Source of the DNA: Flavivirga algicola
GTDB lineage: Bacteria; Bacteroidota; Bacteroidia; Flavobacteriales; Flavobacteriaceae
Direction: 5' to 3'
DNA: 64,000 bases
Assembly: GCF_012910715.1 (NCBI RefSeq)
Contig: NZ_JABBHF010000002.1
Location: 67,001-131,000, forward strand
Part shown: piece after piece, positions 43,170 to 46,851 of the stretch
How positions within the stretch are numbered: the first letter of the stretch is position 1
Layout of the letters: each line of letters begins with the position of its first letter
Position numbers and translations under genes: made by a program
The notes under the pieces: generated by a model
What the model saw: the letters and a program-made list of their open reading frames with translations, nothing else
What the model was told of the DNA's origin: nothing
Databases searched by the model: none

Positions 43170-43272
43170 AAATACGGTTTGTTTTTAATCTAAAAGGTGT
43201 TTAGATCTTATTATTTTTTAAAATTTTAAAAAATATTCGCATTTCAAAAATACAACTTAAGAATATTTTGCA

Positions 43273-43280
43273 TAGCTTTG
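43273..43280 (+). promoter_or_regulatory. -7 element TAGCTTTG of the MFS operon leader
   Basis: Exact TAnnTTTG 18 bp before the leader ORF start and about 220 bp before the MFS gene. No TTG at the standard spacing was found. Confidence 0.45.
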
Positions 43281-43297
43281 ATGCCATTAAAATAAAA

Positions 43298-43378
43298 ATG
43301 CGTCATAACGTCACAATTTGTAAAAAGCAATGGGCCTCTTTAAAGAGAAAGGGTCGGGCTTGTCATATATTGTGGTGA
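43298..43378 (+). CDS. 26-residue leader peptide of the MFS operon attenuator
   Basis: ATG (after an A-rich stretch) opens 26 codons ending TGG TGA: MRHNVTICKKQW, then ASLKRKGRACHILW. It is basic, with two Trp, two Cys and K/R-x-K/R steps at residues 16-20. A ribosome reaching the stop would cover the 5' strand of the antiterminator hairpin and favour the terminator; a ribosome stalled near residues 8-13 would leave it free. This geometry is that of translation-coupled attenuation; real translation is not shown. Confidence 0.45.
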   Translation: MRHNVTICKKQWASLKRKGRACHILW

Positions 43379-43439
43379 TATAAATATAAAATATAACAAT
43401 ATATAAAAGTCCGACTTCACAGTCGGACTTTTTATTTTT
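43353..43439 (+). promoter_or_regulatory. Antiterminator/terminator pair before the MFS transporter gene
   Basis: Terminator: AAAAGTCCGACT (43405-43416) with AGTCGGACTTTT (43421-43432), four-base loop, then T-rich tract; 12 perfect pairs. Antiterminator: GTCGGGCTT (43353-43361) with AAGTCCGAC (43407-43415, one G-U) plus ATATATTGT (43365-43373) with ACAATATAT (43396-43404), 18 pairs around a small internal loop. The two share AAGTCCGAC, so they exclude each other. No plus-strand gene but the leader ORF precedes the terminator. Confidence 0.6.
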
Positions 43440-43502: not shown

Positions 43503-44753
43503 ATGAAAACTTTATTCAACAATTACGTAAACACTTTTAAAGGCTTATCAAAAGAGGTATGGTGGCTTGCTTTAATTACACTAATAAACAGAGCAGGTAC
43601 AATGGTCATTCCGTTTTTATCACTTTACTTAACCAAAAGCCTTAATTTTACTTTAAGTGATGTCGGATGGATTATGAGTGCTTTTGGTTTGGGGTCTGTG
43701 ATTGGTTCTTGGTTAGGTGGAAAATTAACCGATAAAATTGGTTATTATAAAGTGATGGTATTTAGTTTACTTGTAACAGGTATACTATTTATTGCCTTAC
43801 AATTTTTAAGCACATTTATACTGTTTTGCTTTGGTATTTTCTTGGTTATGCTCGTTGCAGATATGTTTCGCCCTGCTATGTTTGTAGCATTAAGCGCCTA
43901 TAGCAAACCTAAAAACAAAATACGATCTGTGACTTTAATCCGATTGGCAATAAACCTTGGTTTTTCTGCTGGTCCAGCTATTGGAGGTATCATTATAACA
44001 TCACTAAGCTATGGTGGTTTATTTTGGGTAGATGGCATTACATGTGTTATAGCTACACTTGTTTTAATAAATGTTTTGAATCCCAAAAAAGCAAAAATAC
44101 TGGATGATGTTACAACAGAAAATCCGAAGTCGGCATATAGTGATAAAGCATTTTTAATTTTTCTTGCAGCTATGGTGCTATTTGGAATTGTATTCTTGCA
44201 ATATTTTTCGACCATGCCTTTGTATTATAAAGATGCACATTATTTAAGTGAATTTGATATTGGTATTCTTTTGGGAATGAATGGTTTTCTCATTTTTGTT
44301 TTCGAGATGCCTTTAATAAAATGGCTTGAAAACACCAATTTCACCAAGTCTGGACTCATGCTTTTTGGAGCTGTTTTAACAGGTTTAAGTTTTATTATCT
44401 TAAACTTTACAAATTGGGCTGGTGTATTAATAATCGGTATGTTATTGATGACATTTGGTGAAATGATAACCTTTCCTTTTTCAAATGCATTTACTATGGA
44501 TAGAGCAAAAAAAGGAAACCAGGGTGAATACATGGCCTTGTACAGTATCGCATTTTCCATAGCGCACATATTTGGTCATAATGCGGGCATGCGTATGGTT
44601 GATGCACTTGGTTTTGACAACACCTGGTATATCATTACAGGTCTTGCTGCCCTTTGTGTATTTTTATTATTTGCACTAAGACAATATTTGAATGCACGTA
44701 AGAGGCGCAAAGAAAAAGTCATAGAAGAAGAAACAGAAATATTATGGATTTAA
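43503..44753 (+). CDS. MFS transporter
   Basis: A 416-residue inner-membrane transporter with 12 hydrophobic helices. The loop 2-3 motif GKLTDKIGYYKVMVF is the MFS motif A, and SAGPAIGGIII in helix 5 matches motif C of drug/H+ antiporters, so export is likely; the substrate is not readable. It is preceded by a leader ORF with a possible transcription attenuator, and it overlaps the VOC gene by 10 bp. Confidence 0.9.
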   Translation: MKTLFNNYVNTFKGLSKEVWWLALITLINRAGTMVIPFLSLYLTKSLNFTLSDVGWIMSAFGLGSVIGSWLGGKLTDKIGYYKVMVFSLLVTGILFIALQFLSTFILFCFGIFLVMLVADMFRPAMFVALSAYSKPKNKIRSVTLIRLAINLGFSAGPAIGGIIITSLSYGGLFWVDGITCVIATLVLINVLNPKKAKILDDVTTENPKSAYSDKAFLIFLAAMVLFGIVFLQYFSTMPLYYKDAHYLSEFDIGILLGMNGFLIFVFEMPLIKWLENTNFTKSGLMLFGAVLTGLSFIILNFTNWAGVLIIGMLLMTFGEMITFPFSNAFTMDRAKKGNQGEYMALYSIAFSIAHIFGHNAGMRMVDALGFDNTWYIITGLAALCVFLLFALRQYLNARKRRKEKVIEEETEILWI

Positions 44754-45121
44754 ACCAAATTACAATACCATCATTAGATGTTGAAAAAGCAACAACATTT
44801 TACAAAACTTTGGGATTGCATCTTATCGTTGATGCCATCCCAGGGTATGTGAGATTTGAGTGTCCTGATGGTGACAGCACTTTTTCAATTCATAAAGTAG
44901 ATCTATTGCCAAAAGGTAGCGGTGTTACCATTTATTTTGAAGATAATAATCTGGATAATTTAGTTTCAAACCTTCAAGAAAAAGGTATTATTTTTACGCA
45001 ATTGCCTGAGGATAAATCATGGTTATGGCGTGAGGCTCATTTACAAGATCCAGATGGAAATAACATCATTTTATACCATGCCGGGAAGAACAGAAAAAAT
45101 CCGCCATGGCGTATCAAATAA
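44744..45121 (+). CDS. VOC-superfamily (glyoxalase/bleomycin resistance-like) protein
   Basis: A 125-residue protein with two beta-alpha-beta-beta-beta halves: LNQITIPSLDVEKATTFYKTLGLHLIVD and the C-terminal REAHLQDPDGNNIILYHAGKN with the conserved metal-site region. VOC proteins are metal-dependent lyases or antibiotic-binding proteins. Its start overlaps the MFS stop, so the transporter and this protein are translated together; a joint role in coping with a toxic small molecule is inference. Confidence 0.87.
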   Translation: MDLNQITIPSLDVEKATTFYKTLGLHLIVDAIPGYVRFECPDGDSTFSIHKVDLLPKGSGVTIYFEDNNLDNLVSNLQEKGIIFTQLPEDKSWLWREAHLQDPDGNNIILYHAGKNRKNPPWRIK

Positions 45122-45136
45122 TTATGAAATAAATAC

Positions 45137-45896
45137 GTGAAACACATTTTTTATATACTCACTCTCCTGCTCTTTATAAGTTGTAATTCTTCAGGAGAAA
45201 AGAAAGTATCGACTAATAATGATACTTCAAAATCCATTGAGGACATTAAAAAATTCCCTGAACTTGCTCCTAAATAGATATAATGTCGCGTTTCTAATAA
45301 TGAACGGCACATACAATACAGAACTAACTGCCCCTTTTGATATTTTTCAGCACACCATTTTTAGAGATAGCATTAAAGCCATGAATGTATTTACGGTTGC
45401 CAATACCGATGATGTTATTACAACTTTTGAAGGTATACGAATGCTACCAGATTTTAATTATTTAAAGGACCCGCTTCCTAAAATCGATATTCTGGTTGTA
45501 CCAAGTGCTGAGCATCATTTAGACTCCGATTTAGAAGATACTACGATGATTAATTTTGTAAAGCAGGTAGATAAAAATGCACAATTTGTTACCTCCCACT
45601 GCGATGGGGCTTTTGTTCTGGCTAAAGCAGGGTTACTCGACCATGCTGTTTCTACAACTTTCCCCAGCGATATTGATAAAATGAGACATATGTTCCCCAA
45701 ACTAGACATTAGAAAAGAGGTTTTGTTTGTCCATGATGGAAAATATATTACCTCGGCAGGTGGTGCAAAAAGTTTTGAAGCTGCTTTATATTTATGTGAG
45801 TTTCTTTATGGGAAAAATGTTGCTCAATCTTTAGCAGGTGGCTTAGTGATTGATTGGAATTTAGAAAAAGTTCCTCATATAATAATCAATAAATAA
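45137..45896 (+). pseudogene. DJ-1/PfpI-family lipoprotein gene with +1 frameshift
   Basis: The frame from GTG 45137 encodes a lipoprotein signal (HIFYILTLLLFISC) and a linker ending FPELAPK, then stops at TAG 45275-45277. The adjoining frame continues RYNVAFLIMNGTYNTELTAP and the whole DJ-1/ThiJ domain (nucleophile Cys in VTSHCDGAFVLAKAG, near 45600) to 45896. Removing one T at 45275 joins the two into one plausible lipoprotein of about 250 residues. Either a recent mutation, a sequencing error, or a shift at AAA-TAG. If the downstream part is translated alone, ATGs at 45219 or 45300 could be used. Confidence 0.75.
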
Positions 45897-46407: not shown

Positions 46408-46851
46408 TTATTTCAACGATTTTATTTCTTTTTGTTTAACAACATCAGACAACACGATTTGTGTTTTGCTTTCTCCATAAATAATAAGTTGATCTATAAA
46501 CGATTCTAAGTGTTTTTGATTTTTTAAAACGACCTCCATAACAATATTTTCGTCTCCAGTTATGCGATAACAATTCACAACTTCATCATAGGTTTTCACC
46601 TTTTCTAAAAACGGTTTTAGCTTCCCCATAAAAGCTCGTAATGTTATAATAGCCTTAAGTTGATAACCAACTTCAAACGGAGAAACAATAGCCTTGTAGC
46701 CTTCTATAAGCCCCAAGTCTTCCATTTTTTTAATACGCTCTGAAACTGCTGGTGAACTAACCCCAACACGACGTCCAATTTCGGCATTAGAGAGACGTGC
46801 ATTCTCTTGTAAACACTTTAAAATCTTCCAATTAAGCCTATCAATATCCAT
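46408..46851 (-). CDS. Lrp/AsnC-family transcriptional regulator
   Basis: A 147-residue regulator: winged helix-turn-helix (residues 1-60, LNWKILKCLQENARLSNAEIGRRVGVSSPAVSERIKKMEDLGLI) and the RAM ligand-binding domain (residues 70-140, with YRITGDENIVMEVVLKN). It probably senses an amino acid and forms octamers. A TAnnTTTG box lies upstream on the minus strand (46889-46896). It lies between two related helical-bundle genes and is divergent from the second. Confidence 0.95.
   Translation of the reverse strand: MDIDRLNWKILKCLQENARLSNAEIGRRVGVSSPAVSERIKKMEDLGLIEGYKAIVSPFEVGYQLKAIITLRAFMGKLKPFLEKVKTYDEVVNCYRITGDENIVMEVVLKNQKHLESFIDQLIIYGESKTQIVLSDVVKQKEIKSLK

Follow-up and report, generated by a model that had tools for sequence, protein, structure and literature searches.

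The stretch of DNA analyzed here, 64,000 nucleotides of the Flavivirga algicola genome (contig NZ_JABBHF010000002.1, positions 67,001 to 131,000 of the forward strand; hereafter the window), carries ahead of a gene for an MFS exporter a short leader open reading frame (ORF), an intrinsic terminator, and a set of strands that can pair in competing ways. Together these parts very probably form a ribosome-mediated transcription attenuator of the exporter operon. The parts themselves are confirmed, and they are conserved through much of the family to which the organism belongs. As comparison among relatives shows, the layout is one in which strand 1 pairs with strand 2, strand 2 with strand 3 as a predicted antiterminator, and strand 3 with strand 4 as a predicted terminator, strand 3 being common to the last two. 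An initial annotation of this DNA had proposed attenuation by the ribosome for the MFS gene and the VOC gene that follows it, and the comparison strongly supports that proposal; the 1:2 pairing and a restricted amino-acid alphabet in leader codons 4–14 are new relative to it. The features, in coordinates of the window, are as follows.

43273–43280, + strand: Bacteroidota-type −7 box TAGCTTTG (TAnnTTTG)
43298–43378, + strand: leader ORF MRHNVTICKKQWASLKRKGRACHILW, ATG at 43298, TGA at 43376–43378, 26 codons plus stop
43307–43339, + strand: leader codons 4–14, restricted amino-acid alphabet, within the predicted antiterminator-permissive stall zone
43309–43317, + strand: strand 1 (A) CGTCACAAT, pairs with ATTGTGGTG at 43369–43377
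43353–43361, + strand: strand 2 (B) GTCGGGCTT, antiterminator 5' arm, pairs with AAGTCCGAC at 43407–43415
43368–43377, + strand: strand 2 (C), over the leader stop, with strand 1 or (for 43368–43373) 43396–43401 as partner
43396–43401, + strand: ACAATA, 3' partner of C, lengthens the antiterminator and could also form beside the terminator
43405–43416, + strand: strand 3 (D) AAAAGTCCGACT, common to antiterminator and terminator
43421–43432, + strand: strand 4 (E) AGTCGGACTTTT, terminator 3' arm, with a T-rich tract onward to 43439
43248–43258, + strand: candidate upstream promoter element AAATACAACTT, at the position of a −33 element

The box, the 26-codon ORF, the terminator of 12 pairs followed by a T-rich tract, and the strand shared by the two hairpins (43407–43415) all lie where the initial annotation had placed them, and the 18-pair antiterminator that it described was obtained as 10 pairs in an upper helix and 8 in a lower one. 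Complementarity of TATTGT (43368–43373) to ACAATA supplies extra antiterminator pairs, while the CGTCACAAT:ATTGTGGTG pairing completes the 1:2, 2:3, 3:4 layout. We take TAGCTTTG to be a −7 box of the Bacteroidota type and AAATACAACTT presumably to be a −33-type promoter element of the same phylum; no consensus ribosome-binding site was found before the leader ATG of the window. The segment 43280–43445 folds at −42.7 kcal/mol (z = −4.67), and none of 200 shuffles is equally stable. The exact stem pattern occurs at a single place in the 5.02-Mb genome, which rules out a common genomic terminator repeat, and when both strands of the window were searched for terminators preceded by a strand complementary to them (−11 kcal/mol or better), the attenuator site was the sole match. 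Rfam gives no match in the window at gathering score; a lenient scan yields 47 matches, all below that score and many over the terminator hairpin.

Covariation and conservation across the family

The competing pairings were compared by an alignment-free partner-swap test, in which each strand is paired with its own or with a swapped partner and the swaps disregard relatedness. For B:D, the set comprised the 99 of 102 loci in which the script found a terminator. With 33 distinct stem cores, the own partner gives −11.45 kcal/mol against −9.11 (standard deviation 0.39) for swapped partners, and none of 5000 swaps is as good; all 99 loci lead to the same verdict (−11.74 vs. −10.12 kcal/mol). The A:C pairing behaves alike in 87 of the 99 loci, the remainder lacking the box or ORF by the script, with −12.0 own vs. 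−9.2 swapped and again 0 of 5000 swaps as good. Seven control pairings (six unrelated stretches, plus A:D) have 696–1981 of 2000 swaps as good as the own partner. Thus the arms of terminator and antiterminator covary, as expected of the compensating hairpins that the initial annotation had suggested looking for.

A broad model alignment, with 79 loci in 78 distinct rows (from 100 sources searched), was fitted to the 1:2 plus 3:4 structure and not to 2:3. Within it, the structure to which it was fitted is 89.2% paired over the 78 rows, compared with 36.4–48.0% for slid versions, and 21 of 31 pairs have changes on both sides (10–13 when slid). In that fitted alignment helix 1:2 is 90.1% paired with 8 of its 12 pairs changed on both sides, and the terminator helix 3:4 is 98.2% paired. 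The antiterminator 2:3, to which the alignment was not fitted, is 87.6% paired vs. 32.5–41.5% slid, its covariation score is 0.154 vs. 0.015–0.059 slid, and none of 500 column shuffles attains any of five measures. In a narrow alignment of 30 rows, 2:3 is 97.6% paired yet no better than shuffles (410 of 500); the narrow alignment is therefore uninformative for covariation and the broad set is needed.

Relatives of the MFS protein at E 1e-80 or better occur in 173 of 299 family genomes. We examined 142 loci (102 in a first set and 40 later) from this one family, taken from part of the matching genomes, for an intrinsic terminator within 300 nucleotides of the MFS start and for an ATG-initiated ORF of 17–30 codons ending 15–45 nucleotides before that terminator. 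The terminator is present at 128 loci and 121 of these also have the leader ORF in place, so that 121 of all 142 loci retain it, contrary to the loss of conservation that the initial annotation had named as a ground for doubt. Applied to the same 128 stretches, the ORF search returns 4 reverse complements and a mean of 11.4 (maximum 18) mononucleotide shuffles; a further control, on antisense MFS stretches, gives 55 of 426. Sorted by MFS identity, terminator and ORF occur together in 21/32 loci at 50–59%, 32/37 at 60–69%, 38/42 at 70–79%, 23/24 at 80–89%, and 6/6 at 90–99%, plus the window. Inspection by eye suggests that some misses are probable detection failures (L254) and that some matches are doubtful (L243). 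Of 87 loci selected for having the ORF, 83 have 22 open codons in the leader frame, compared with 14 and 5 in the other two frames.

The promoter elements follow the leader. TAnnTTTG lies within 45 nucleotides 5' of the leader ATG in 99 of the 121 loci, compared with 98 of 1694 control windows, and in 1 of 121 it stands past the terminator but ahead of the MFS start, which argues against a start lying only downstream of the terminator, an arrangement that the initial annotation had considered. The columns of AAATACAACTT are at least 90% identical across 16 aligned upstream regions, locus L015 being without the element.

A DNA search of 40 genomes, the F. algicola genome included, gave matches in 17, among them all 11 others of the same genus; at least one match (26 bases in G026) is perhaps due to chance. 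In the 12 same-genus genomes (own included) every strong model match, at 158–172 bits, precedes the MFS gene, and under strict filters no strong match precedes other genes there, matches of up to 42 bits in the own genome being uninspected. Uninspected matches in other genera include one of 45 bits in G013, where no MFS match was seen, and one of 54 bits in G020. Beyond the clade, only L215 among 24 further loci has a terminator within the set distance, and by that measure the attenuator was found in none of the 16 best loci of one large genus, g142 (L218–L233, MFS 46–53% identical). In those 16 best loci a TAnnTTTG box begins 24–30 nucleotides before the MFS start.

Predicted switching by ribosome position

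To describe how the pairings may be selected, transcripts cut just after D were folded with a ribosome mask covering 14 nucleotides before to 15 nucleotides after the first P-site base, where both footprint and transcript start are assumptions. Averaged over 87 loci, the probability that B pairs with D, P(B:D), is 0.81–0.87 for stalls at codons 2–13, 0.62 at codon 14, 0.34 at codon 15, and at most 0.14 at codons 16–25. The window follows the same course, with 0.99 at codons 2–13, 0.87 at 14, 0.50 at 15, and 0.13 at 16.

From this folding we infer switching by ribosome position. RNA polymerase would start just 3' of TAGCTTTG and produce a leader bearing the 26-codon ORF. Under free translation, a ribosome in the second half of the ORF would cover B and C, strands 3 and 4 would pair, and transcription would end before the MFS gene. 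A ribosome slowed at roughly codons 2–13 would leave B and C free for strand 3, the terminator would be blocked, and the exporter gene would be transcribed, together with the VOC gene where one is present. The signal would then be slowed translation in the first half of the leader.

Several results weigh against this picture or its parts. Without a ribosome the mean P(B:D) is 0.66 (0.99 in the window, above 0.5 in 60 of 87 loci), and in the model the gene may thus come on when translation is absent as well, which sets it apart from the classical trp case. When the P site holds the last sense codon of the window's leader, the mask model still gives a P(B:D) of 0.69, so that the off state would depend on timing. 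The B:D signal is an average, since for 20 of 33 B strands the own D is among the best 10 of the 33 candidates, and the swaps behind it do not preserve relatedness. Cells of 2:3 changed on both sides number 12, not above slid versions (9–22), and the consensus fold of 30 near relatives consists of the terminator and of C with its 3' partner, 1:2 not being included. At the level of loci, 21 of 142 lack the terminator or the ORF by the measures above. For codons 2–14 the ratio of nonsynonymous to synonymous polymorphism (pN/pS) is 0.72–0.83 in the leader frame and 0.65–1.14 in frame +2, a pattern which indicates that the exact residues are weakly constrained. Finally, among 25 of the 31 matching NCBIfam models none passes its cut-off for the MFS protein.

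Leader alphabet and the probable signal

The leaders, mostly 22–28 codons long, do not share a peptide sequence across the family, and no fixed-sequence arrest peptide was seen. What they share is a restricted alphabet. Over 119 distinct leaders, the residues A, D, E, G, P, H, L, and F (the avoided set) make up 80 of 1309 residues (6.1%) at codons 4–14 and 353 of 1247 (28.3%) past codon 14, a gap that none of 5000 within-leader order shuffles matches and that does not appear in the other two frames. Codons 2 and 3 are less strict, with avoided residues in 13 and 26 of the 119 leaders. An early-codon bias does not account for the effect: the 37 ORFs longer than 200 amino acids called mechanically in the window have 42.3% avoided residues at positions 4–14, and none of them is free of such residues there, compared with 69 of 119 leaders.

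The avoided set was first chosen after viewing all leaders, so that the hold-out test that follows is only partly blind. When a rule was applied to 91 leaders it yielded the same set, and in the remaining 28 (MFS identity below 65%) avoided residues then number 32 of 364 (8.8%) in frame 0, vs. 39.9% and 41.0% in the other frames and 32.4% expected from shuffles. When 117 of the 119 leaders are aligned to the last codon that is permissive by folding (codons 12–15 in 106 of 119), avoided residues make up 10% at that codon and 37% one codon later. An RNA-level cause of the alphabet is unlikely, since the other frames do not show the effect and neither do codons 15 onward, which supply the pairing partner.

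Codons 2–14 are rich in Thr, which occurs at least once in 116 of 119 leaders (81 expected; L049, L078, and L118 are the leaders without it) and at least twice in 91 (34 expected), and Gln and Val are enriched as well. The initial annotation had pointed to Trp and Cys codons as one possible cause of slow translation. Both residues are enriched over shuffles in codons 2–14 (Trp in 37 leaders with 7 expected, Cys in 69 with 26 expected); the case for them as regulatory codons is weak, and starvation for them is rejected as the shared signal, as 82 and 50 of the 119 leaders have no Trp or Cys there, respectively, and neither occurs in tandem. The annotation had also drawn attention to a K/R-rich stretch, and the leaders are indeed basic and nearly acid-free, with at least one K in 114 and at least one R in 88. 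The motif [KR]x[KR], which we take to be the macrolide-type stall motif (erm, mef, msr), is found at residues 2–18 in just 41 of 119 leaders, and a macrolide stall motif was rejected as the common feature.

As the most likely cause of the slow-down we lean, on balance, toward a toxic compound that acts on the ribosome and would be pumped out by the exporter. The literature offers two leads: borrelidin, an inhibitor of Thr-tRNA synthetase, stalls ribosomes at Thr codons (PMC13410324, excerpt), and tetracenomycin X acts at QK motifs, to go by a title in the reference list of that paper.

The main alternative is a shortage of aminoacyl-tRNA, sensed as in trp- or his-type attenuators by a few first-half codons that stall the ribosome. 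Avoidance of eight amino acids in the stall-permissive codons, the richness in Thr, and the enrichment of Trp, Cys, Gln, and Val fit such a sensor, as does leader-peptide attenuation before amino-acid biosynthesis operons, described in this family (PMC9723704, excerpt). We nevertheless consider it unlikely, given that the controlled gene is an exporter, at times with a VOC gene, rather than a biosynthetic operon, and that tandem regulatory codons of the trp/his type were not found, even Thr, the residue most often doubled, standing in tandem in just 21 of 119 leaders.

More tentatively, the leader could be a broad translation-stress sensor in which selection keeps the amino-acid alphabet and not the peptide sequence. 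The alphabet would set which stalls may open the exporter gene, be it through drug context or through tRNA supply, and the sequence would drift among the remaining twelve amino acids at codons 4–14.

Readings without a sensing ribosome fare much worse. Riboswitches, too, use competition of the 2:3 and 3:4 kind, and strong alternative structures are present here; even so, a metabolite riboswitch with an incidental short ORF is very improbable in view of the Rfam result, of an ORF kept at 121 of 142 loci in a frame selectively open, and of the frame-specific residue bias at codons 4–14. The stem might also be no more than a terminator for a transcript arriving from upstream or from the other strand, the remaining pairings being chance. 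A near-symmetrical stem with a terminator-like score on both strands favors this reading, which can be virtually dismissed since the P450 gene upstream runs away from the stem, the plus-strand ORFs listed between the far end of that gene and the box are all 66 amino acids or shorter, and covariation of B:D and A:C would be unexpected.

Neighboring genes, related systems, and significance

The genes under the presumed control of the attenuator are the following.

43503–44753, + strand: MFS exporter gene, 416 amino acids, PF07690 (E 9e-61)
44744–45121, + strand: VOC (glyoxalase/bleomycin-resistance-like) gene, PF00903, with a 10-base overlap with the MFS stop

The MFS protein matches seven solved sequences, all NorA, with distant likeness (E 1.1e-9), and a VOC relative lies inside the fetched flanks of 43 of 80 named loci. 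Among the same-genus loci, some 60–70 extra bases separate terminator and MFS start in L006, L009, L012, L013, and L015, and about 30 in L008 and L010. In L016 the attenuator is intact and the MFS match falls into two parts that lie in different reading frames, perhaps through a broken gene or faulty sequence at that locus.

On the opposite strand, the first gene upstream codes for a P450 and the one after it for a DUF1684 protein. The P450 gene (41757–43169, − strand) is the divergent neighbor in the 12 same-genus loci; in L016, L017, and L019, from other genera, a DUF1684-like lipoprotein ORF starts in its place on visual inspection, and 76 of the 80 named loci have DUF1684. By this sequence comparison the P450 gene looks like a later insertion. 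The MFS/VOC pair is followed by a DJ-1/PfpI gene (45219–45896, + strand) and an Lrp/AsnC-type regulator gene (46408–46851, − strand).

With trp-type attenuators the Flavivirga attenuator shares the 1:2, 2:3, 3:4 layout and a leader whose stop codon sits close to where strand 2 ends. It differs from them in having no runs of regulatory codons, in preceding an exporter gene instead of a biosynthetic operon, and in that the no-translation state is predicted to be on in the window.

By target, the nearest described case is the mef(E)/mel attenuator of Streptococcus, which likewise places a leader ORF, an intrinsic terminator, and alternative stem-loops before an MFS efflux gene, and whose induction requires leader translation (PMC4335068, excerpt). 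Its leader has 8 codons (MTASMRLR) with a macrolide stall motif and is served by a consensus ribosome-binding site (same excerpt), whereas leaders of the Flavivirga type are longer, have no fixed motif, and belong to another phylum. There is also a likeness to the attenuators of ermK, vmlR, bmrCD, lmo0919, and tetM, where a drug-stalled ribosome favors the antiterminator; the transcription cases in the excerpted text of that paper come from Bacillus, Listeria, Streptococcus, and Enterococcus (PMC5418344). In E. coli, toiL, a single upstream open reading frame (uORF) of topAI, responds to ribosome-targeting antibiotics of several classes, with ribosomes stalling at different positions, and acts via translation and Rho (PMC12121999, excerpt), while the Flavivirga site has an intrinsic terminator. 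Attenuators are also on record for HflXr, MsrD, and yxjB. In Flavobacterium psychrophilum, leader-peptide attenuation precedes amino-acid operons, and other structured 5' elements are conserved in the family (PMC9723704, excerpt). The kind of system is thus known, and for this particular attenuator family we found no published description in the literature searched (one library), though the list in PMC9723704 may include the element.

If the proposal is true, much of one Bacteroidota family has kept, ahead of an exporter gene, a transcription attenuator that depends on the ribosome and is backed by covariation; the drug-type case met in print from that phylum, Bacteroides tetQ, acts on translation (PMC5418344, excerpt). 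The leader alphabet, which is frame-specific and stops close to the codon at which the predicted switch reverses, would offer a direct way to learn what a sensory uORF with an unconserved peptide reads. For the bacteria that carry the attenuator, the prediction is an inducible, intrinsic export response.
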